A DNA stretch of 31,442 bases. It comes from a virus. The DNA lies in the IMG/VR virus record IMGVR_UViG_3300036772_000553, positions 1 through 31,442 of that record; one strand, written 5' to 3'. The notes under the pieces are model-generated. The model was not told the DNA's origin, ran no database searches, and saw only the letters and a program-made list of their open reading frames with translations. The translations under genes and the position numbers were made by a program. Positions 17,420 through 31,442 of this stretch are shown here, piece by piece. Within the stretch, counting starts at the first letter, position 1, and each line of letters begins with the position of its first letter.

Positions 17420-18241
17420 ATGAACTTTTCTGACGTTAAACAAGGAAATCTCACTAAGAAGTGTCTCGTTAGAGCCTTCAAAGTTAACAGTGCATCTACC
17501 GATGTACTTTTTAAACAAGTGTCTCAGTCAAAAAAATTCCAATCTGGCTCAATTATTAAAATTAATGCTGAAAAGCACCTAATGTTAAAGGCTTATGAAA
17601 CAAATAATAATATCCATTATTTGCACATTGCCTTATACAACCCAAAAGCTCAGGTATCTATTACTCCATTAGTTAATACAGTGAGTGATTTGCTTGATGT
17701 CGAAAACCTCGATGACCTTCATGCTTTTTTACTTATCAAAGATAATAAAATCGCATCTTTGATGCAAATATCCACAAACTGGTGTGAAGTTAAAATTGCA
17801 AAAATATTTAACCAGTTTGGGATAAAAATAACCCCATCGGCAATATTGCAAAAAAATGTTGTCCAGCGGATTAAAGATGACAAGTTGAAAGCATTACATC
17901 TAAACATCGATGTGGATGAAGCAGATTTTGTAAAAGCACCAGGATTAATAGAATCAATATTTAACAAAGAGCCGAAAGTTAGGGCTAAAGGTATCTCAGG
18001 ACATTTAACTATTGATGCAAAAGGAAATGCCGAACTGGCACAGTCAATAGAAAATAACCCTGCCGACTGGGTATCAGATCTTGACAGTGATTTTTATATT
18101 GAAACTAAGAAAGGTGAGAAAATTACTAGTGATGATCTCAAGCTAACCAAAACCTACTTCACCGTGCCATACGGTTCTAAGTCTATCAACGCAAAGTACG
18201 CAAAAGAAATCCTAGAGGATTTTGCTGCAAAAGAGCTATAA
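17420..18241 (+). CDS. RexA-like soluble partner of a two-gene exclusion-type cassette (inferred)
   Basis: A 273-residue cytosolic protein without signal or membrane segment. No sequence family is certain. It resembles lambda RexA (279 aa) in length, in partner and in the order of features: a strand block FLLIKDNKIASLMQI (RexA FLFVEGDTIGFARTV, from memory), then a helix, a VVQRIKDD-KLKALHL segment, a GHLTID strand and a C-terminal helix. RexA is the DNA-binding sensor that triggers RexB. The gene is AT-rich (about one third GC), opposite in strand to its neighbours, has its own promoter, and is followed 28 bases later by a 4-TM protein gene. The ribosome site is weak. KwaB of Kiwa is an alternative analogue. 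Confidence 0.55.
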   Translation: MNFSDVKQGNLTKKCLVRAFKVNSASTDVLFKQVSQSKKFQSGSIIKINAEKHLMLKAYETNNNIHYLHIALYNPKAQVSITPLVNTVSDLLDVENLDDLHAFLLIKDNKIASLMQISTNWCEVKIAKIFNQFGIKITPSAILQKNVVQRIKDDKLKALHLNIDVDEADFVKAPGLIESIFNKEPKVRAKGISGHLTIDAKGNAELAQSIENNPADWVSDLDSDFYIETKKGEKITSDDLKLTKTYFTVPYGSKSINAKYAKEILEDFAAKEL

Positions 18242-18269: not shown

Positions 18270-18755
18270 ATGCTAAAAAAAATTAATACTACAGGGTTGA
18301 TTATTTCAACACTGAACATTTTAGCCTCCATCAGCTTTTCTATATTTCTTACTGATAGCCTGACCAATAATAGTGATGCATTAAACTTAGTCGCCAATGT
18401 TTTTTCCATTCTTTCAGGTTTTTTACTTTTAGTGATAACAATGTCGGGTGAAAACTCGGCCATCATGGATAATATAAGTGACCTTGATGCAGCCTATCAA
18501 GAAAAGCGTTTTCTTATGCGCTTTAATAAATACTACGCTCTCTTTTTACTATATATATTAACACTGGCTTTAATATTTGTTTTTTACCTTATTTCAAAAA
18601 ACAAAGAAAATACATCTCAACTTTTCTCATTAACAAAGTCAGTCATAGGCCACGCCATCGCATTTTTGACCTGTTTTTCTTTCATTCAATCAACCTTCAT
18701 CCCTTTAAAAATAAAAGAGCTTTTCAGAGAAAAAAGGGAACTTAACAAAAAATAA
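18270..18755 (+). CDS. Four-TM membrane protein, RexB-like partner (inferred)
   Basis: A 161-residue inner-membrane protein with segments at about 8-28, 38-58, 88-108 and 123-146, short loops and a basic Lys/Arg-rich tail. Lambda RexB is 144 aa with four segments and a similar charged stretch between the second and third (here MDNISDLDAAYQEKRFLMR). RexB is held to be an ion channel that depolarises the infected cell. A perfect AGGAGG lies 5 bases upstream of the ATG, much stronger than for the first gene. The gene ends at a bidirectional terminator. Confidence 0.6.
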   Translation: MLKKINTTGLIISTLNILASISFSIFLTDSLTNNSDALNLVANVFSILSGFLLLVITMSGENSAIMDNISDLDAAYQEKRFLMRFNKYYALFLLYILTLALIFVFYLISKNKENTSQLFSLTKSVIGHAIAFLTCFSFIQSTFIPLKIKELFREKRELNKK

Positions 18756-20566: not shown

Positions 20567-21447
20567 GCCGCCACCTGCCCTTTCTGCTTGCGATAGCTTC
20601 CCCAGTCAAAAATTAACTCGGTACCACCCCCTTCAACCATACGATCGGTCAGGCGCTCGCCGATAGCATCAGAAATCTGTGCAGGTGTGAGATTGCTCAA
20701 CAGGATAGTCGGCAACATGCGTTCGTAACGAGTGTTGAGAATGTCGAACAGAATGATTTTCTCTGCATCGGTACCATACTGAAGGCCAACCTCATCGATC
20801 ACCAGCAGATCCCGACTGGTGTACAGGCCAACCAGCGCATCCTCAGTTGTATCGGATTCTTTGGACCAGGTACGCTTGATAGCCCGGATGATGCGCATCA
20901 CTGAGGTCATCAGAACTGTGCTCTGATGGTTACGGATGATATTTTTCGCCAGCGCGGTAACCAGGTGATTTTTACCGGTACCCGGCTTACCCGTGAGAAT
21001 AAGACTGGTGCCGTTCTCCAGCATCTCAGGCCATGCAGATGCATAAGCTTTCAGGATACTCAGGCATTTTGCAGCACTGTCACAAACCACTTCGTAATTG
21101 CTGAATTCGCAGGCTTCAAATCGTGGGGCGATGCAGGCATTCTCCAGCAAGATATCAATCTGGATCGCTGTTTTTGTCTGTGCGGCTGCGTCAATTTCCT
21201 TCTGGATACAGACCGGGCAACGGGATGACTTTTCAGACACACGACCTCTGAATTCCATCCAGATGCGGTTTTTCTGATAATCGCCATGCAAGTTACAGGT
21301 TGCTGGTTTTGTTTCCTGCTTGTCATAGCAGCGATCTGTGGTTGCAACCTCACCACCAGCGAATGCCAGCTCTTCCAACAGGTTATCCATCGTTGCGCCC
21401 AGCGACTGAATATCTCGCTTGCGGTGATCTGAAGTCATGTAGCTCAT
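20563..21447 (-). CDS. DnaC-like helicase loader (AAA+ ATPase)
   Basis: A 294-residue AAA+ protein. Walker A is GKPGTGKNH at 153-161 and Walker B is LLVIDEVG near 213. The TILLSNLT sensor and a C-terminal arginine-rich segment follow. An N-terminal Cys/His cluster (Cys51, His54, CPVC 77-80) may bind zinc. It should load the DnaB-like helicase, a pairing in place of lambda P. ATGA overlaps the O stop, and GAGAGG lies 6 bases upstream. Confidence 0.92.
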   Translation of the reverse strand: MSYMTSDHRKRDIQSLGATMDNLLEELAFAGGEVATTDRCYDKQETKPATCNLHGDYQKNRIWMEFRGRVSEKSSRCPVCIQKEIDAAAQTKTAIQIDILLENACIAPRFEACEFSNYEVVCDSAAKCLSILKAYASAWPEMLENGTSLILTGKPGTGKNHLVTALAKNIIRNHQSTVLMTSVMRIIRAIKRTWSKESDTTEDALVGLYTSRDLLVIDEVGLQYGTDAEKIILFDILNTRYERMLPTILLSNLTPAQISDAIGERLTDRMVEGGGTELIFDWGSYRKQKGQVAA

Positions 21448-22310
21448 GCGTTACCTCTCGCCCATACTGGTGTACTGGTTTTGCCGTAGTCACGTTCGTT
21501 AAATCCGGAGTGCTTGCTATCCTGCGGTTTGGCCTGTTGCGTACCCGCCACCACCCATGCGTTTTCAAACTCAAGACCCGTGCCGAAGAACCTTGTCCCC
21601 TGCATCACAAACTCAGTGCCGATTTTCCCGAGAGCCTGCTGGTATGCAGCGTAACGATTAACCCCTTGCAGCATGGCCTCAACGGACACACCTTCCCGCA
21701 GACGTGCACTCCACGACTGGTAGGCCTTGTTTTTAGGGTTGCTGCCTTGCCGTGCTGGATAAGCTTTCCAGGCGGTTTCGAATTCAGGAGAATATTCACT
21801 CTTTGCTGGCTTATCAGGTGTACTGGCGGCAGCCTGTGCACCAAGAGGTTTAGTAATCTCTGTTGTAATATATGTTGTAGTAACCTGTAGAGATGAGGCG
21901 GATTTACCCTCATCCATCGGGGCAACCTGCTCTTGTCGATCAGGGCAATTTGCACTCATCGAACAGGGCATTTCTTCCGAAGGTTCTTTGAGTAGTTCAC
22001 TGCCAAAATTGATGGTGTAAAAATTGGTTCGGTCATGCTGAGATTTGTTCAGTTGCTCAACATCCATAACCCCTTGCTTCACCAAGGAGGTAAACGCACG
22101 TTTAACCGTATCGACAGACCAGAAAGGGAACTGTTTAACCCACGCTTCGTAGCTGTTGAATACCCAACGACGACCGTCATGATCGACCCCTTGCTCCCTG
22201 TCGACCAGCCAGTAGTTAACTTGCTGAAGTATGATTGACTCGTTAAGCCCAATGCGCACAGCAAGTTCTGGATTAATAACCAGCGGCCTGAAATTAAACA
22301 AAAGGCTCAT
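21444..22310 (-). CDS. Replication initiator, O-like
   Basis: About 288 residues. The N-terminal half is a winged-helix domain (ELAVRIGLNESIILQQVNYWL, then SVDTVKRAFTSLVKQGV). A low-complexity Ser/Thr/Ala linker covers about 125-165. The C-terminal part is DnaD/DnaT-like (FETAWKAYPAR, YQSWSARLREG, MQGTRFFG). It should bind origin repeats and recruit the loader and helicase. The linker codon region holds 23-bp spaced repeats, as lambda O holds ori. The start at 22310 overlaps the antirepressor stop (ATGA) with GGGAGG 7 bases upstream. Confidence 0.85.
   Translation of the reverse strand: MSLLFNFRPLVINPELAVRIGLNESIILQQVNYWLVDREQGVDHDGRRWVFNSYEAWVKQFPFWSVDTVKRAFTSLVKQGVMDVEQLNKSQHDRTNFYTINFGSELLKEPSEEMPCSMSANCPDRQEQVAPMDEGKSASSLQVTTTYITTEITKPLGAQAAASTPDKPAKSEYSPEFETAWKAYPARQGSNPKNKAYQSWSARLREGVSVEAMLQGVNRYAAYQQALGKIGTEFVMQGTRFFGTGLEFENAWVVAGTQQAKPQDSKHSGFNERDYGKTSTPVWARGNA
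21845..21970. repeat. Candidate replication origin: iterons plus AT-rich stretch inside O
   Basis: On the plus strand CATCGGGGCA (21915), GATCAGGGCA (21938) and GAACAGGGCA (21961) recur every 23 bases. A weaker GATGAGGCGG at 21892 is in the same phase. Beside them lies an AT-rich stretch (about 21845-21886) with two TGTTGTA copies 12 bases apart. Lambda ori has the same plan within the O linker. Confidence 0.55.
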
Positions 22311-23131
22311 GCTGCTGCCTCCCATTCAGTGATGTGTGTGAAATCACCGTTCCAGTTTTTCTTCATTGGAAGGCTTCCCTTGAGATAATGGCGATAAAGC
22401 CAGATTGCGCCCTTGTGCAGCAGGATTGGTTTGAAGGTGTCGCGCATCGTTCCATCTTCCTGTTCGACCTGACCACGGCGCTCTGTGAGATACTGGTCGC
22501 GTGCATAATTGCCAACGCGCCAGCGCGGAAGCTTAGATTCAGGGCGATCATCGAAAAGCCAGTTATGATCTTCGAGGCACGCATTAACCTGACGAACGTT
22601 GACGCCATTAAACTGCTTACAAAACTCATAGGGAGTAATGCCGCCCGCAATCAAGTTTTCCAGGTGGTCGATATACTTAGACTGACGATGGGAATAGCCG
22701 ATAGCGCGGCGCTCAGCTTCCTTGGCGTCAGCCCACGCTCGGGCAGCGGCTACCTCGTCGCTAAAATCTGGGAGGTCGTTAGATGGTGATAGGCTGTATG
22801 AGCCAGTGGCTCGGATGGATGGCAACACATCGGTGGTGATCCAACGCTTGAAGCGTTTGGCTTGAGGTTTACGACTTTTGAGGATTAGCGTGTAAAGGCC
22901 GGATTCGTTGACCAACATTGGCTTGCGGCCCGAACCCGAATAATCTTCGTGTTCACAAATATCTTCATCATCTACAGACAGTAGAGCTTTGTTTGTATCG
23001 CTAAGCCCAAGTGCCTGACAAGCATCGACGGCAAAGAACCATGGCGACTGATTAATAACAACACTACGTACTGAGGCTAAAAGTTCACCAGCACTTGATT
23101 TAAAATCGAAGGTTCTGATATTGTCTTTCAA
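22307..23131 (-). CDS. Antirepressor-type protein, Bro-N plus ANT (KilAC) domains
   Basis: A 274-residue protein. Residues about 1-110 are a Bro-N domain (WFFAVDACQALGLSDTNKAL, VNESGLYTLILKSRKPQAKRFKRWI, LPSIRATGSY). Residues about 165-265 look like the KilAC/ANT domain (ITPYEFCKQFNGVNVRQVNACL, LLHKGAIWLYRHYL). Such proteins bind DNA or neutralise repressors. It lies between the cro-side small gene and O, where lambda has cII. The start is a TTG at 23131 with GGAGAG 7 bases upstream; no ATG fits the domain start. Confidence 0.88.
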   Translation of the reverse strand: MKDNIRTFDFKSSAGELLASVRSVVINQSPWFFAVDACQALGLSDTNKALLSVDDEDICEHEDYSGSGRKPMLVNESGLYTLILKSRKPQAKRFKRWITTDVLPSIRATGSYSLSPSNDLPDFSDEVAAARAWADAKEAERRAIGYSHRQSKYIDHLENLIAGGITPYEFCKQFNGVNVRQVNACLEDHNWLFDDRPESKLPRWRVGNYARDQYLTERRGQVEQEDGTMRDTFKPILLHKGAIWLYRHYLKGSLPMKKNWNGDFTHITEWEAAA

Positions 23132-23690: not shown

Positions 23691-23784
23691 TTTATCAAAG
23701 TTTATCTTTACGATAAACAAATGACAAGGTAATTTATCATTTTGGGTATTTATCATCATGATAAATAATGAGAGCATTGATAAA
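23691..23784. promoter_or_regulatory. cI-cro switch: PR, probable PRM and operators
   Basis: PR (minus): TTGTCA at 23722-23727, 17-base spacer, TAAACT at 23699-23704. Operators are 17-bp TTTATC-N5-GATAAA: TTTATCTTTACGATAAA at 23701-23717, between the PR boxes; a poorer copy at 23733-23749; and TTTATCATCATGATAAA at 23749-23765. Centres lie at 16-bp multiples (23709, 23741, 23757). Half-sites occur at 23691 and 23779. A possible PRM is TTGGGT at 23742 with ATAATG at 23765. Confidence 0.8.
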
Positions 23785-24545
23785 TGGATATTAAAGACAT
23801 CAGACGGCGCAACTTACTTGCGCTAATAAACGACTACCTTTTCCGTCACCCTAAATCTGGTAAGGCGGGCTTTGCGGAAGAGGTAGGCATACCCCCTTCT
23901 CAACTCAGTCAATTAAGTAGCGACAGAGGAATTCGCAATATAGGTGATGTTATGGCCAGACGAATCGAGGTAAGCCTTGCTTTACCACATGGCTGGATGG
24001 ACTCCCCTAAATGGGATGCCAGTAACGAAACCCCCATGCTCAACTATTCTGTCGTGGAACCTCTAGTCGAGAAATTTACACTTCACAGCGAGCCAGAAGG
24101 CTACCCTGATCAAAAATACAGGCTTGAGGTTTTAGATACTGAGTTTAGCTGCGGGGGCGGAAGGTTAAACTCTGAATATCCAGAAGTTATTCGTTCCATT
24201 GAGTTAGATCCGGAAGAGGCCAAAAGGATGTTTGGTGGTCGGCAAGCCGCATCTCTTAAGATAGCCACAGCCATGGGGGATAGCATGTTAGGCAGCATAT
24301 TCCCTGGGGAGCTAGTTGTATTGGATGTAACGATTAAACGTTTTATAAGCGATGGCATTTATGCTTTCGTTTATGGGGATAATTTCCATATCAAACGCCT
24401 GCAGCTGTTAAAAGACCGGATGATTGTAATTAGCGATAATGCTTCTTATGAGCGATGGGAAGTGACAAATGAAGATGAGGAATTATTCCATATACAGGGT
24501 TTTGTTATAGGTAAATGGCAAATGTCTTATACCAGACTCGGTTGA
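23784..24545 (+). CDS. cI: CI-like prophage repressor with S24 autocleavage domain
   Basis: A 253-residue LexA/CI-type repressor. The HTH lies in about 28-48 (AGFAEEVGIPPSQLSQL). The C-terminal S24 peptidase has Ser167 (GDSM) and Lys204 (FHIKR). A Cys123-Gly124 pair before the peptidase fold is the probable self-cleavage site under RecA, so induction by DNA damage is likely. The ATG overlaps an operator half-site (GATAAATGG), suggesting autoregulation. A strong terminator follows. Confidence 0.93.
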   Translation: MDIKDIRRRNLLALINDYLFRHPKSGKAGFAEEVGIPPSQLSQLSSDRGIRNIGDVMARRIEVSLALPHGWMDSPKWDASNETPMLNYSVVEPLVEKFTLHSEPEGYPDQKYRLEVLDTEFSCGGGRLNSEYPEVIRSIELDPEEAKRMFGGRQAASLKIATAMGDSMLGSIFPGELVVLDVTIKRFISDGIYAFVYGDNFHIKRLQLLKDRMIVISDNASYERWEVTNEDEELFHIQGFVIGKWQMSYTRLG

Positions 24546-24562
24546 TAACCCCCTCACTACAT

Positions 24563-24587
24563 AAACCGCCTAAATGGCGGTTTTTTT
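24563..24587 (+). terminator. Intrinsic terminator after cI
   Basis: AAACCGCC-TAAAT-GGCGGTTT followed by more T. It separates the repressor transcript from the left operon. Confidence 0.92.
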
Positions 24588-24604
24588 ACACCTTTCAAAA
24601 AATA

Positions 24605-24691
24605 TTTATCATTATTTATCAGAAACATAATCAAAATCCTGTCACAAATGATAAATTATGACTTTACCAAACTTTATCATTGGGATAAATT
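24605..24691 (+). promoter_or_regulatory. Left early promoter PL with repressor operators
   Basis: A perfect operator TTTATC-ATTGG-GATAAA at 24673-24689 matches those at the cI-cro switch. Half-sites TTTATC lie at 24605 and 24615, and GATAAA at 24650. A promoter TTTACC (24663-24668), 17-base spacer, TAAATT (24686-24691) encloses the operator, so repressor binding should block it. Confidence 0.75.
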
Positions 24692-26689: not shown

Positions 26690-27072
26690 TGACCACCAGC
26701 AAAGTTAGAACAGGTATCGACGCGGCGTTTAGTCGCCCTCTCCGTCCGGTTTATATCGTGACACGTCATGGCTATCGCAAACGCTGTCTGAGTCGTAGCG
26801 CTGCGCTGAACAACCTGGCGCATTACATGACCACTCACGCCTTTCATCTGGTTGGTATCAGGACCCATAACCCGGATATGCCAGTTCAGCGAGACGGTGT
26901 GATCGTCCACCAGCTCGGACAACCAACTGAAGTTTACCTGTCTGCTCATGCTCGCTGCATTCGCCGTATTCGTCACCTGTTAGCCCGTAAACGTGAGATC
27001 CAGCAGTGGCAGGTAAAGCACGACGCATTAACCGATCAGTACCGCGAGTTCATGAAAACGAAGCCATTTTAA
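26686..27072 (+). CDS. 128-aa basic hypothetical protein of the left operon
   Basis: Not recognised. It is Arg/His-rich: RPVYIVTRHGYRKRCLSRSAALNNLAHYM in the first half, HARCIRRIRHLLARKREIQQW in the second. It may bind nucleic acid. It overlaps the previous gene (ATGATG). Twelve bases later an ORF6N gene begins with its own strong ribosome site. Confidence 0.7.
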   Translation: MMTTSKVRTGIDAAFSRPLRPVYIVTRHGYRKRCLSRSAALNNLAHYMTTHAFHLVGIRTHNPDMPVQRDGVIVHQLGQPTEVYLSAHARCIRRIRHLLARKREIQQWQVKHDALTDQYREFMKTKPF

Positions 27073-27083
27073 GGGAGAGACAA

Positions 27084-27833
27084 ATGAAATCTATTGTTAT
27101 TAAAAATACTCAACTTCCTGTCGTAGATTACCGCGGTCAGCGAGTAGTTACCTTCTCAATGGTAGATGATGTACACAACCGTCCTGATGGAACAGCCAGC
27201 AGAGCATTCCGTGAAAACCGAGACCGCTTCATTGAAGGGGAAGATTTCTACACTGTTAGCACCGACGAAATTCGTCGGGACAAATTTTATACACTATCAG
27301 TGATGGCCCGAGGTCACGTTACCTTCCTGACTGAATCCGGCTACTTGATGCTGGCAAAATCACTTACCGACGATCTCGCCTGGCAAGTACAACGCGAACT
27401 GGTGAGCTCATATTTCCGACAATCGCAGCCTAAAACCCAGAATGAAATCATCGCTGCTATGGCGCTGGCTAATGTTGAGCAAGAGCGACGTCTGGTAAGT
27501 GTAGAAGAAAAAGTTGAAGACGTAGCCGCTACTATTCAGCAAATAAAACAAGGTTCGATCCCCACTGGCTGGGCTGGTTATTCCCTTCTACGAGTGAAGT
27601 GCGGCATGACCGATACGAAATGCCGCACCCTGGTTAAAAGCTATAGCGTTGCAACTGACACCATCACAATCATGACCCCTGACGGCCAGCCTCGTCCTAT
27701 GAAGATTGTGCTTGAGCCGGATTTCATGACGACTTTCCGCACGATGATGTCAGAAGCGGAGCAGCGCGGAACGAAGTGGCATCACCCTCAAATGGGGCTG
27801 TTCCAAGTTATCGGATGGGAAGCGCAATCATGA
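27084..27833 (+). CDS. ORF6N-domain (KilA-N-like) putative antirepressor or regulator
   Basis: A 249-residue protein. The N-terminal 115 residues are an ORF6N/KilA-N-type DNA-binding domain (LPVVDYRGQRVVTFSMVDDVHNRP, RAFRENRDRFIEGEDFY, FLTESGYLMLAKSL). A helix pair follows (ANVEQERRLVSVEEKVEDVAATIQQI), then a C-terminal domain with KCGMTDTKCRTLVKSYS. It is a second antirepressor-like regulator besides the Bro-N protein, under PL control. GGGAGA lies 5 bases upstream of the ATG; an open frame from 27006 has no such site. Confidence 0.85.
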   Translation: MKSIVIKNTQLPVVDYRGQRVVTFSMVDDVHNRPDGTASRAFRENRDRFIEGEDFYTVSTDEIRRDKFYTLSVMARGHVTFLTESGYLMLAKSLTDDLAWQVQRELVSSYFRQSQPKTQNEIIAAMALANVEQERRLVSVEEKVEDVAATIQQIKQGSIPTGWAGYSLLRVKCGMTDTKCRTLVKSYSVATDTITIMTPDGQPRPMKIVLEPDFMTTFRTMMSEAEQRGTKWHHPQMGLFQVIGWEAQS

Positions 27834-28440: not shown

Positions 28441-28841
28441 GCAATATTCAGTTGGAAAATGGACGTATCAATCTGGAAGGGTTGAATGGTATCGCGGAGC
28501 ACCTCAAAGCACTGGCTATCACCAACAGAACTTTGGATATCTTGAAGGAAAAACTGTCCCGCAGTGAAGACAAAGACAGCGACTGGCATCATCGGGCAAC
28601 AGCAGCCCATAAAGCCTGGTTCTGGATGCGTAGCCGTATTTGCGAACGTTTGTCGGTCCTTCGTAGAGAAGAGAAAGAAATGAACGTTATGCGTGCCCGC
28701 TTTGAAGATGAAGAACTGCTGACACTTCTGAGGAAGCAGGTAACGAAAGCGGATTTGGCTTCATTACGGTTAGTCGCTCGCGCCATTGCAGAAGGACGCC
28801 TGCAGGCCGATTTAAACAAAGCTGAGGTGCGCAATGACTGA
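28437..28841 (+). CDS. 134-aa helical hypothetical protein of the left operon
   Basis: Not recognised. Coiled-coil-like throughout: AEHLKALAITNRTLDILKEK, KAWFWMRSRICERLSVLRRE, then KADLASLRLVARAIAEGRLQAD. It overlaps the next gene by 8 bases. Confidence 0.72.
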   Translation: MSNIQLENGRINLEGLNGIAEHLKALAITNRTLDILKEKLSRSEDKDSDWHHRATAAHKAWFWMRSRICERLSVLRREEKEMNVMRARFEDEELLTLLRKQVTKADLASLRLVARAIAEGRLQADLNKAEVRND

Positions 28842-29157
28842 AGCCAATATTTTCGATCTGGCGCAAATCATCAAAAGTGCATGGGGTGACCCTGGCGATA
28901 TTACCAGTGCGGTATGGAAAGCTGGTTATCGCAAGCCTGAAAAATCAGCAGAGGAAGCAGTATTGTTGGCTATTGACCTGATCGGTGAATATCACGGCTA
29001 CGATATCCCACGCGAGCACTGGCCTGAAACTTATGACCATGTGCTTTCAGGAGAATTGAACCGGATTGTTTTTGATGCCGAACGGCCTGATGCCGCGACA
29101 CCCGCCTGCATCGCAAAGGCAATTATCGCGGCTGGCTACAGTAAGGTGAACGTATGA
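28834..29157 (+). CDS. 107-aa hypothetical protein with AGY helix motifs
   Basis: Not recognised. It carries two helices that end in AGY: ITSAVWKAGYRKP (about 24-36) and CIAKAIIAAGYSKV (about 92-105). Similar ends recur in the two products that follow. Acidic in the middle (YDHVLSGELNRIVFDAE). It overlaps the next ATG (ATGA). Confidence 0.7.
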   Translation: MTEANIFDLAQIIKSAWGDPGDITSAVWKAGYRKPEKSAEEAVLLAIDLIGEYHGYDIPREHWPETYDHVLSGELNRIVFDAERPDAATPACIAKAIIAAGYSKVNV

Positions 29158-29468
29158 TCGAGCACTCAACGAAATGGCAGATTGCCCAATACACACCTGA
29201 TCCGAAAACAGTGTGCGCATTCTGCAAAGGAGCCTTTGCAGATAAATACCTGATTACCGGTCCTGACGGGCTGAATATCTGCCTGGACTGTGCCGAACTG
29301 TGCGCTGAAATCGTCAGTGAGCGGAAAAAAGGGCAACGGGAAGAGGCTGTGAAAGAGATGCTGCGCGTTGAGATGGCGATGGAAGATAGTTATCAACCTG
29401 CCGATCTGATGTATCGGTTGTATGACGCAGGGTTTCGCCAGATGCACAATGGAAGGGCTAATGGATAA
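29154..29468 (+). CDS. Free-standing ClpX-type zinc-binding domain protein
   Basis: A 104-residue protein. Residues 20-54 match the N-terminal zinc-binding domain of ClpX: Cys21-x2-Cys24-x18-Cys43-x2-Cys46, the same spacing as ClpX Cys15/18/37/40. It shares LITGPDGLNIC (ClpX LIAGPSVYIC) and CAELCAEIV (ClpX CVDLCNDII). No AAA+ domain follows; the rest is a charged helix and a DAGF motif. In ClpX this domain dimerises and holds adaptors and substrates such as lambda O, so this protein could interfere with or redirect ClpXP. That role is inferred. Confidence 0.85.
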   Translation: MIEHSTKWQIAQYTPDPKTVCAFCKGAFADKYLITGPDGLNICLDCAELCAEIVSERKKGQREEAVKEMLRVEMAMEDSYQPADLMYRLYDAGFRQMHNGRANG

Positions 29469-29778
29469 GCTAAGCCGCCAGCAGTTTGGGTCTGCATTCA
29501 TGGATATTTTTGGCAATCCTACGGGAATTATCACACAGGACAATATCCGCGATCTGGATATCGGTATGGAAGAGCTTGAAGCACTGTGGAATGCCAGTCG
29601 GTCAACACCTGTGACACTGCCGCCAATGTTCGATCTCGAAGGAAGATCGGGGAGGAATTTTATTATTGCCGGCGCACACAACAGTGCAATCGCTATGTGT
29701 TCAATGGCGATAAAGGCAGCAGGTTATAAAAGTGAATGCTCGCCACTCAATTGCAGCGAGGAAACAAACAATGACTAA
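29461..29778 (+). CDS. 105-aa hypothetical protein of the left operon
   Basis: Not recognised. It begins MDKLSRQQFGSAFMDIFG and has an IRDLDIGMEELEALWNAS helix and an AMCSMAIKAAGYKSE end with the AGY motif of its neighbours. The start at 29461 is chosen for GGAAGG 4-5 bases upstream; an ATG at 29449 is also possible. It overlaps the previous gene by 8 bases. Confidence 0.7.
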   Translation: MDKLSRQQFGSAFMDIFGNPTGIITQDNIRDLDIGMEELEALWNASRSTPVTLPPMFDLEGRSGRNFIIAGAHNSAIAMCSMAIKAAGYKSECSPLNCSEETNND

Positions 29779-30014: not shown

Positions 30015-30200
30015 ATGGCCACGAGATATATTGGACTAAAAGAAATGTGCAAACTGACCGGAAAAAGCCACCCGACACTGTGGCGCATGTGGGAAAAGAA
30101 GAAGGATTTCCCAGCACCGCACCGTAGCAAAAGTGGTTCCTTCCTGGGCTGGCCTGAGCATATTTATGAAGAATGGGTGAAGCAGCAGGCCAGCAATTAA
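30015..30200 (+). CDS. AlpA-like excisionase/regulator
   Basis: A 61-residue MerR-like winged helix-turn-helix: YIGLKEMCKLTGKSHPTLWRMWEKKKDFPAP, then GSFLGWPEHIYEEWV. This is the AlpA-type fold used as excisionase or integrase activator in P4-like systems. It is the last gene of the left operon and converges on the integrase, leaving 3 bases between stops. The start at 30015 is chosen for GTGAGG 5 bases upstream. Confidence 0.82.
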   Translation: MATRYIGLKEMCKLTGKSHPTLWRMWEKKKDFPAPHRSKSGSFLGWPEHIYEEWVKQQASN

Positions 30201-30203
30201 CTC

Positions 30204-31442
30204 CTACACTGCGTCAGGCGACTGGCGCAGTGCATTCAAACGTTCTTCCCACTGATTTATGATTTCCCACTTCTCACGAAGGTATGCGTAACGGTCATAA
30301 TGCTTTGTCGCAACGCCTGGCTTCTTGTGGTTTTGTAGCCGGTCGCGCATCTCCAGGCTGATCCCCATATCACCAGCCAGCGTTTTAAACGTTCTCCGGA
30401 CATCCCTCGGAGTGAAGGGCGTAAACTCTTCTCGCTGACAAAATTTTCTGAGCTGCTTTCCGTATTCAGCAGACAGTAGATGCCCTTCTTTCGTGTTACC
30501 GGGGAAAAGATAAGGTGAGTCCGCATAACGTTTCAGTTGCCCTTCGATAATCTTCGTAGCTGATTTGGTCAGCGGGATAACGTGAATATCCCCATTTTTG
30601 GAAATGTGCTGCGGAACAGTGAGCGTATTGTTCCTTTTATCCCAGTTATCGCGGGTATTCGTCATAATTTCCCACGGACGCTGGCCGCCGGTATGCAGGC
30701 ACAGCAGCAAAAGCTGAGCGTAATCCGGGTTCATTGGGCATTCCTCTTCAGGAACGCTAACCAGTCTCAGCAGTTCGGTTAACTCGTCCCACGAGAGGAA
30801 GCGATCCAGTGCTTTATCTGCACCTTTTTGCGGAGGAACAACAGATACAGGGTTGCGATCCAGCCCGTAGCGAGTCTTTCCGTTTATATTGGCCGGATTG
30901 TTATCGGCGAATAAACCAAAATTAAAAATCGCATGAAGATTTGCGCGCACTTTGTTAGAGCCCGCCACCGCTCCACGCTCTATAAACTCAGCCAGAACAT
31001 ACTTAATCTGAAGGGGGGTAATCTCCTTTGCTGGCATGCCTGCATTTATATGTGGGCTTGCTAATACCTGCTTTAACCTGTCCTCTGTCTTCTTCCAGGA
31101 GCGTTTCTCTAGCCTCTTCTGATCAGCGATATAATCATCAAATAGCTGCTTGACTGTCGCATGCTCGTACACCACTTTATCAAGGGTATCGACGTTGGCA
31201 GCTGCATCCCGGGCTTTGCTGGTAGCTTCGGATAAACTCAGGTGCGGATAGTCACCCAGCGTGAGAAATTTTCTGGCCCCATCTTTATGGTATTTGTAGA
31301 CAAAAACTTTCCGGCCAGATGGATAAATCTTCAGCCCCAACCGCCCGGTGCCACGCGAAGCGGAAGCTTGCCAGACATAGTAAGCCTGATCCTTTGGTTT
31401 GATGCCCTTTATCTTACTGTCGGTGAGAAGTATTCCAGCCAT
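30204..31442 (-). CDS. int: Tyrosine recombinase integrase, P4-like
   Basis: A 412-residue integrase. The N-terminal DUF4102-type arm-binding domain (LTDSKIKGIKPKDQAYYVW, LKIYPSGRKVFVYKY) covers about 5-90 and the core-binding domain about 95-180. The catalytic set is Arg255 (HTGGQRPWEI), Lys282, Arg349 (TPRDVRRT, with Arg in place of the usual first His, as seen in part of this family), His372 and nucleophile Tyr382 (HYDRY). The ATG is the last codon of the window, so the ribosome site, promoter and att site lie outside. Confidence 0.93.
   Translation of the reverse strand: MAGILLTDSKIKGIKPKDQAYYVWQASASRGTGRLGLKIYPSGRKVFVYKYHKDGARKFLTLGDYPHLSLSEATSKARDAAANVDTLDKVVYEHATVKQLFDDYIADQKRLEKRSWKKTEDRLKQVLASPHINAGMPAKEITPLQIKYVLAEFIERGAVAGSNKVRANLHAIFNFGLFADNNPANINGKTRYGLDRNPVSVVPPQKGADKALDRFLSWDELTELLRLVSVPEEECPMNPDYAQLLLLCLHTGGQRPWEIMTNTRDNWDKRNNTLTVPQHISKNGDIHVIPLTKSATKIIEGQLKRYADSPYLFPGNTKEGHLLSAEYGKQLRKFCQREEFTPFTPRDVRRTFKTLAGDMGISLEMRDRLQNHKKPGVATKHYDRYAYLREKWEIINQWEERLNALRQSPDAV
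30207..30232. other. Strong hairpin between convergent excisionase and integrase ends
   Basis: CACTGCGTCAG-GCGA-CTGGCGCAGTG forms an 11-bp stem with one G-T pair. It lies in the last codons of the integrase gene. No T run follows on either strand, so it may slow or end both converging transcripts or shield the mRNA ends. Confidence 0.65.

Follow-up and report, generated by a model that had tools for sequence, protein, structure and literature searches.

Lambda O is a textbook client of ClpXP and is recognised via the zinc-binding domain (ZBD) of ClpX. Within the ClpX hexamer the ZBDs dimerise, and their docking sites for SspB, RssB, trigger factor and lambda O overlap on a hydrophobic surface. 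Degradation of lambda O does not occur when the ZBDs are missing and is sped up by partial ZBD removal, its rate being tuned by how many ZBDs the hexamer carries (PMC7804408). Residues F16 and I46 of ClpX are reported to form a hydrophobic side pocket that is needed for the trigger-factor effect and that overlaps the site of lambda O, SspB and RssB (PMC7804408).

In the window (i.e. the whole stretch of 31,442 nucleotides that was analysed), the gene at 29154-29468 encodes a 104-aa protein that resembles the N-terminal ZBD of ClpX (PF06689; structures 1ovx and 2ds5) in its CxxC-x18-CxxC arrangement, its GP...IC..C core, the helix that follows, and the hydrophobic residues at the positions of F16 and I46. 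It differs from ClpX in lacking the AAA+ domain, in the replacement of Tyr34, and in having a PDPxxVC segment before the first cysteine and a long helix plus an AGYRK tail after the finger. Gene 19 of Shigella phage Sf6 (PHROG 3680) belongs to the same family and occupies the same site before xis/int, although it is about 27-30% identical to the 104-aa protein, the cysteine spacing in the family is x17 or x18, the ClpX Pfam score is weaker or absent, and the C-terminus is different. Another solo ClpX ZBD from the early region of temperate phages (PHROG 5259, here called the cII-O family) is encoded in the right (replication) operon, has an x19 spacing and lacks the AGYRK tail. TraR, DksA and lambda Orf73 (PF01258) are small C4 treble-clef proteins as well, Orf73 being from the same lambda region, whereas the 104-aa protein is without their N-terminal acidic helix and ExxRK motif and has other conserved residues.

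Domain identity and phage family

An initial annotation had claimed a stand-alone ClpX ZBD for this gene, which is borne out by the match of residues 20-56 to PF06689 (zf-C4_ClpX; E = 1.5e-6), with 28.4 bits versus a curated cut-off of 27 bits. Residues C21, C24, C43 and C46 are spaced as in E. coli ClpX, and the alignment to ClpX takes one compensating insertion plus deletion. The top sequence matches in the PDB, albeit weak, were both ClpX ZBDs (1ovx, E = 0.015; 2ds5, E = 0.029), and the sole matches in an NCBIfam search were the N-termini of two ClpX models. The ClpX models scored 20-23 bits versus cut-offs of 359-371, and the protein does not belong to the ClpX unfoldases (TIGR00382), being without the AAA+ ATPase domain. 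The absence of this domain, which had likewise been claimed, was confirmed by a Pfam search of the ORF for AAA+, which gave no match.

In the AlphaFold model of the protein the pLDDT is above 90 across the finger, and the helix is modelled confidently too. When the PDB was searched with this model, the best match was ClpX and the next was 2ds5, the ClpX ZBD in isolation (probability 0.97, TM 0.69 on target, 2.1 Å), with no match below E 0.001; a viral structure search returned no informative name, and none of the defence-system models matched the protein. The phrog_3680 profile was matched at 6.2e-11, and a search of the whole 31,442-bp record gave a single match to the 104-aa protein. The identity of the domain, a ClpX-type ZBD, is secure.

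Since four-cysteine treble clefs are easily confused, ClpX and TraR/DksA were compared. The profile comparison gave E 7.9e-13 for the host ClpX ZBD versus E 7.9e-6 for DksA/TraR. In all 30 distinct members the equivalent of F16 is F or L and that of I46 is I, L or M; these positions are mostly hydrophobic in the cII-O family as well, whereas most DksA/TraR proteins have polar or charged residues there. Tyr34, which is invariant in ClpX (in a reference set made up of Enterobacterales genomes), is replaced by N, H or S in 30 of the 30 members. The TraR/DksA fold is related to that of the 104-aa protein, while the finger either derives from ClpX or is ClpX-like, and has diverged from it across the whole family. 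The F16 and I46 equivalents may be retained only for the fold.

Relatives occur in phages (Sf6 gene 19, Kapi1, TL-2011a and other Stx phages, Hafnia phage Meifeng and Providencia phage PSTNGR2lys) and as prophage genes in Hafnia, Kosakonia, Raoultella, Morganella, Providencia and E. coli. A single sequence as query gave one close relative in the viral contigs and no relative in the genomes, so that an alignment had to be used instead; this gave 111 IMG/VR relatives (80 of which were kept) and finds in Hafnia, Kosakonia, Raoultella and Morganella genomes. The Sf6 allele is present in 311 of 5426 E. coli genomes and is labelled 'hypothetical protein' among the matches listed, and a DNA-level search of E. 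coli for the copy in the window gave nothing. One match in the phage collection (L008) turned out to be bacterial ClpX on a mislabelled contig (carrying a trigger factor-clpP-clpX-lon cluster) and was excluded.

All 22 aligned members match the PHROG 3680 profile, and 21 match PF06689 at E up to 1. For the Sf6-like and Providencia-like branches the PF06689 score is under the cut-off (17-22 bits or no match), which suggests that the domain may have taken on a different role by drift. The 'exactly the ClpX spacing' of the initial annotation holds for this copy (x18) but not for the family, as the 30 distinct sequences are divided between spacers of 18 (15/30) and 17 (15/30). This variable spacing had been overlooked, together with the C-terminal module and the existing phage family (Sf6 gp19, PHROG 3680). 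The family signature consists of PxPxxVC before the first cysteine, the ClpX-type finger and a long helix; most members also carry the C-terminal YDAGYRK module (16 of 22 match phrog_3483), which is poorly conserved among the Sf6-type members. In all pairs with estimable dS, dN was far smaller than dS (e.g. 0.10 vs 0.48 and 0.06 vs 0.42), and the family is under purifying selection. Public libraries already contain this domain and this phage family, with no function assigned.

The AGYRK/AGFRQ module (PHROG 3483) forms the C-terminus of the zinc protein and is also found near the N-terminus of the neighbouring protein (28834-29157). It may be an interaction module shared by phage early proteins.

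The early operon and its predicted control

The ATG of the ZBD gene overlaps the stop of the preceding gene (ATGA, with AAGGTG upstream), and its 3' end overlaps the start of the next gene at 29461 (Table 1). With overlaps at both ends, the gene is therefore part of a tightly packed operon. This plus-strand operon comes after the gene of the CI-like repressor and is closed by the excisionase-like gene, which faces the integrase. All 25 family loci whose sequence continues downstream for 3 kb or more have an integrase ORF there, the family members being placed at the end of a CI-controlled pL-type operon, directly before the integrase.

Behind the repressor gene there is a T-tailed hairpin, followed by a promoter-like site (TTTACA-16-TATCAT, at 24585-24612). 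The octamer TTTATCAT has six copies in the window (1.08 expected by chance), all of them at 23733-23765 and 24605-24680, and one perfect palindrome, TTTATCATCATGATAAA, is present at 23749 within the right-side operator-like sites. CI-type operators with TTTATCAT half-sites are predicted on both sides of the repressor gene. These flanking repeats have the layout of OR and OL, on the basis of which the ZBD gene is assigned to a CI-controlled pL-type operon. The earlier description as an early phage gene is supported by the position of the operon after the CI-like gene and by the promoter-like site at its start, which overlaps TTTATCAT.

Table 1. Positions of the features in the window.
Feature	Position	Strand	Evidence or remark
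Stand-alone ClpX-type zinc-finger protein gene (Sf6 gp19 / PHROG 3680 family)	29154..29468	+	ORF, 104 aa
ClpX-type zinc-binding domain, residues 20-56	29211..29321	+	PF06689 match; C21, C24, C43, C46
Long helix and C-terminal 'YDAGFRQ' module (family consensus YDAGYRK), residues 61-98	29334..29447	+	phrog_3483
Upstream operon neighbour with AGYRK module, function unassigned	28834..29157	+	phrog_36275
Downstream operon neighbour, function unassigned	29461..29778	+	phrog_343
Excisionase-like gene	30015..30200	+	phrog_66 excisionase 6.6e-6
Tyrosine integrase	30204..31442	-	PF00589 2.4e-9, PF13356
CI-like repressor, S24 peptidase domain	23784..24545	+	PF00717 9e-12, phrog_4
Operator-like TTTATCAT sites, right-operon side of repressor gene	23733..23765	.	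sequence repeats
pL-like promoter overlapping operator-like TTTATCAT repeats	24585..24680	+	TTTACA-16-TATCAT
O-like replication initiator, a candidate ClpXP client encoded by the phage	21444..22325	-	phrog_270 1.1e-39
Probable moron pair	17420-18241, 18270-18755	+	273 aa; 161 aa, probable membrane protein

The right operon contains genes for an antirepressor-type protein, the O-like initiator (which is also matched by the O-like families phrog_678 and phrog_391), a DnaC-like loader and DnaB. Two distinct antirepressor-type proteins, Bro-N and ORF6N, are encoded at 22307-23131 and 27006-27833, in the right and left early operons, respectively. The genes of the probable moron pair gave no Pfam match above the cut-off and no PADLOC match; they are on the strand opposite to that of the late-region genes around them, between the DNA methyltransferase and Q antiterminator genes.

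Proposed role and rival explanations

On the best reading, which is quite possible although just short of probable, the protein is a docking domain detached from ClpX that joins the docking network of ClpX early in infection, as a decoy or dimer partner, and thereby shifts the substrate choice of ClpXP. A pL-type operon under CI control would express a detached ZBD together with its PDPxxVC segment, long helix and AGYRK module. Since the ZBDs dock partners and dimerise on ClpX (PMC7804408), such an early free ZBD could capture partners or swap dimers: it would bind the usual docking ligands of the ClpX ZBD (SspB, RssB, trigger factor and O-type initiators) or, alternatively, pair with a ClpX ZBD by replacing its partner. 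The substrate choice of ClpXP would then change, most usefully by sparing the O-like and other early proteins of the phage or by re-aiming ClpXP. For the 104-aa protein we infer zinc binding, dimerisation and contact with ClpX or adaptors, as well as the direction of the effect. In this manner the widespread PHROG 3680 family may interfere with the target selection of ClpX.

Action via ClpX, which the initial annotation had brought forward (as competition for adaptors or substrates, poisoning of assembly, or an adaptor function), can reasonably be inferred. It gains weight because the F16/I46 positions are hydrophobic and because an independently placed solo-ZBD family adjoins an O-like gene, and it loses weight because no member has kept Tyr34 and because the Pfam score of some branches is under the cut-off. 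The PDPxxVC segment and the AGYRK tail, for which ClpX has no counterpart, also argue against a role through ClpX, as does the fact that the ZBD gene adjoins xis/int, and not O, in this phage.

The main rival is a regulatory role independent of ClpX, in which a generic treble-clef scaffold outside the ClpX pathway serves as a DNA-, RNA- or protein-binding early regulator (like the Ea8.5-type exo-xis proteins), for example of the lysis-lysogeny decision or of excision, without contacting ClpX. This is possible, if on the doubtful side. The strict xis/int linkage of the family would fit with such a regulator, and so would the loss of the ClpX Tyr34, the sub-threshold branches and the extra AGYRK module that is common to the neighbouring protein (28834-29157); in addition, lysogenisation is generally altered by exo-xis genes (PMC3824215). 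However, it leaves unexplained why the pocket positions have stayed hydrophobic and why solo ClpX ZBDs turn up repeatedly next to O and to further genes of replication.

Second in line, and unlikely, is a transcription modulator of the TraR/DksA/Orf73 type, i.e. a small RNA polymerase-binding protein with a C4 zinc site, encoded in the exo-xis region. The TraR homologue Orf73, which acts on RNA polymerase, does come from the same operon region of lambda (PMC9239242), half of the PHROG 3680 family has the TraR-type x17 spacing, the DksA/TraR profile match (E 7.9e-6) points the same way, and one member matches phrog_54 ('DksA-like zinc-finger protein'). Nevertheless, TraR/DksA membership (PF01258) was rejected, as the 104-aa protein was not matched and just 2 of 22 members were, at a best E of 0.22. 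When the TraR motifs DxxDxA (N-terminal) and ExxRK (C-terminal) were sought in the members, each was found in 0 of 30; just 11-25 residues precede the first cysteine, so that there is no coiled coil, and the F16/I46 positions are hydrophobic instead of polar.

We know of no adaptor that docks with a ZBD, the known ones using short tails, and this, next to the poor conservation of the C-terminal module in Sf6-type members, speaks against a phage adaptor whose ZBD would tether to ClpX while its C-terminal module delivers a host target (e.g. a restriction, repressor or defence protein). An adaptor role is unlikely, slightly more so than the TraR-type one, even with a two-part architecture (the ZBD is followed by a distinct C-terminal module that another protein has as well), with known adaptors acting by docking on the ZBD (PMC7804408), and with EcoKI proteolysis by ClpXP in restriction alleviation being established (PMC11109961).

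Solo ClpX zinc-binding domains elsewhere in phages

The cII-O family, with proteins of about 62 aa, is encoded between cII and an O-like replication gene in 61 IMG/VR loci (L133:4001-4189 and 60 similar loci, L129-L189), and a further example is L096:1459-1647. Of 63 loci, 57 have cII upstream, and in 56 O starts 18-24 bp downstream. The domain shares about 50% identity with the ZBD of the host's ClpX, and in one Klebsiella phage (ST974-OXA48phi18.2) it has been named 'ClpX superfamily protein'. In a subset of the family (e.g. CVFQWVDIVF) the extra Cys that ClpX has after the fourth zinc ligand is replaced by Trp.

A third form, with an N-terminal segment and a near-unchanged ClpX ZBD, is encoded by the P2-like PhiR44_2 (L213:3824-4156) and P88 (L215:3824-4156), where the gene is located directly after replication and partition-like genes; the P88 protein has been named carboxylate-amine ligase, with a ClpX note. 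In Pseudomonas phage PP9W2 a fourth form, again a solo ZBD, is found beside a TraR-like gene and DnaB.

Tentatively, several unrelated lineages of temperate phages could have recruited a motorless ClpX docking domain, each at its own early or replication locus. These proteins would be a class of decoys for ClpXP or of regulators that swap dimers, and would protect or time O-type initiators and other clients. The literature searches, made in one open-access library, gave nothing relevant on stand-alone ClpX zinc fingers in phages, nor a phage protein that works through the ClpX ZBD; it seems that repeated, separately placed detached ClpX docking domains in temperate phages, one of them fixed beside an O-like gene, have not been discussed there. 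If these proteins do bind ClpX or its adaptors, phages thereby have a compact genetic means of acting on proteolysis in the host, and biochemists gain natural ZBDs of separated function. Owing to the cII-O family, with its fixed place some 20 bp before O, the idea is open to a direct test.

Among the Raoultella-family genomes sampled, 5 of 149 have a PF06689 match besides ClpX. One locus in a genome of this family (L211:3187-3555) encodes a protein of about 120 aa in which a different N-terminal domain is joined to a ClpX ZBD.
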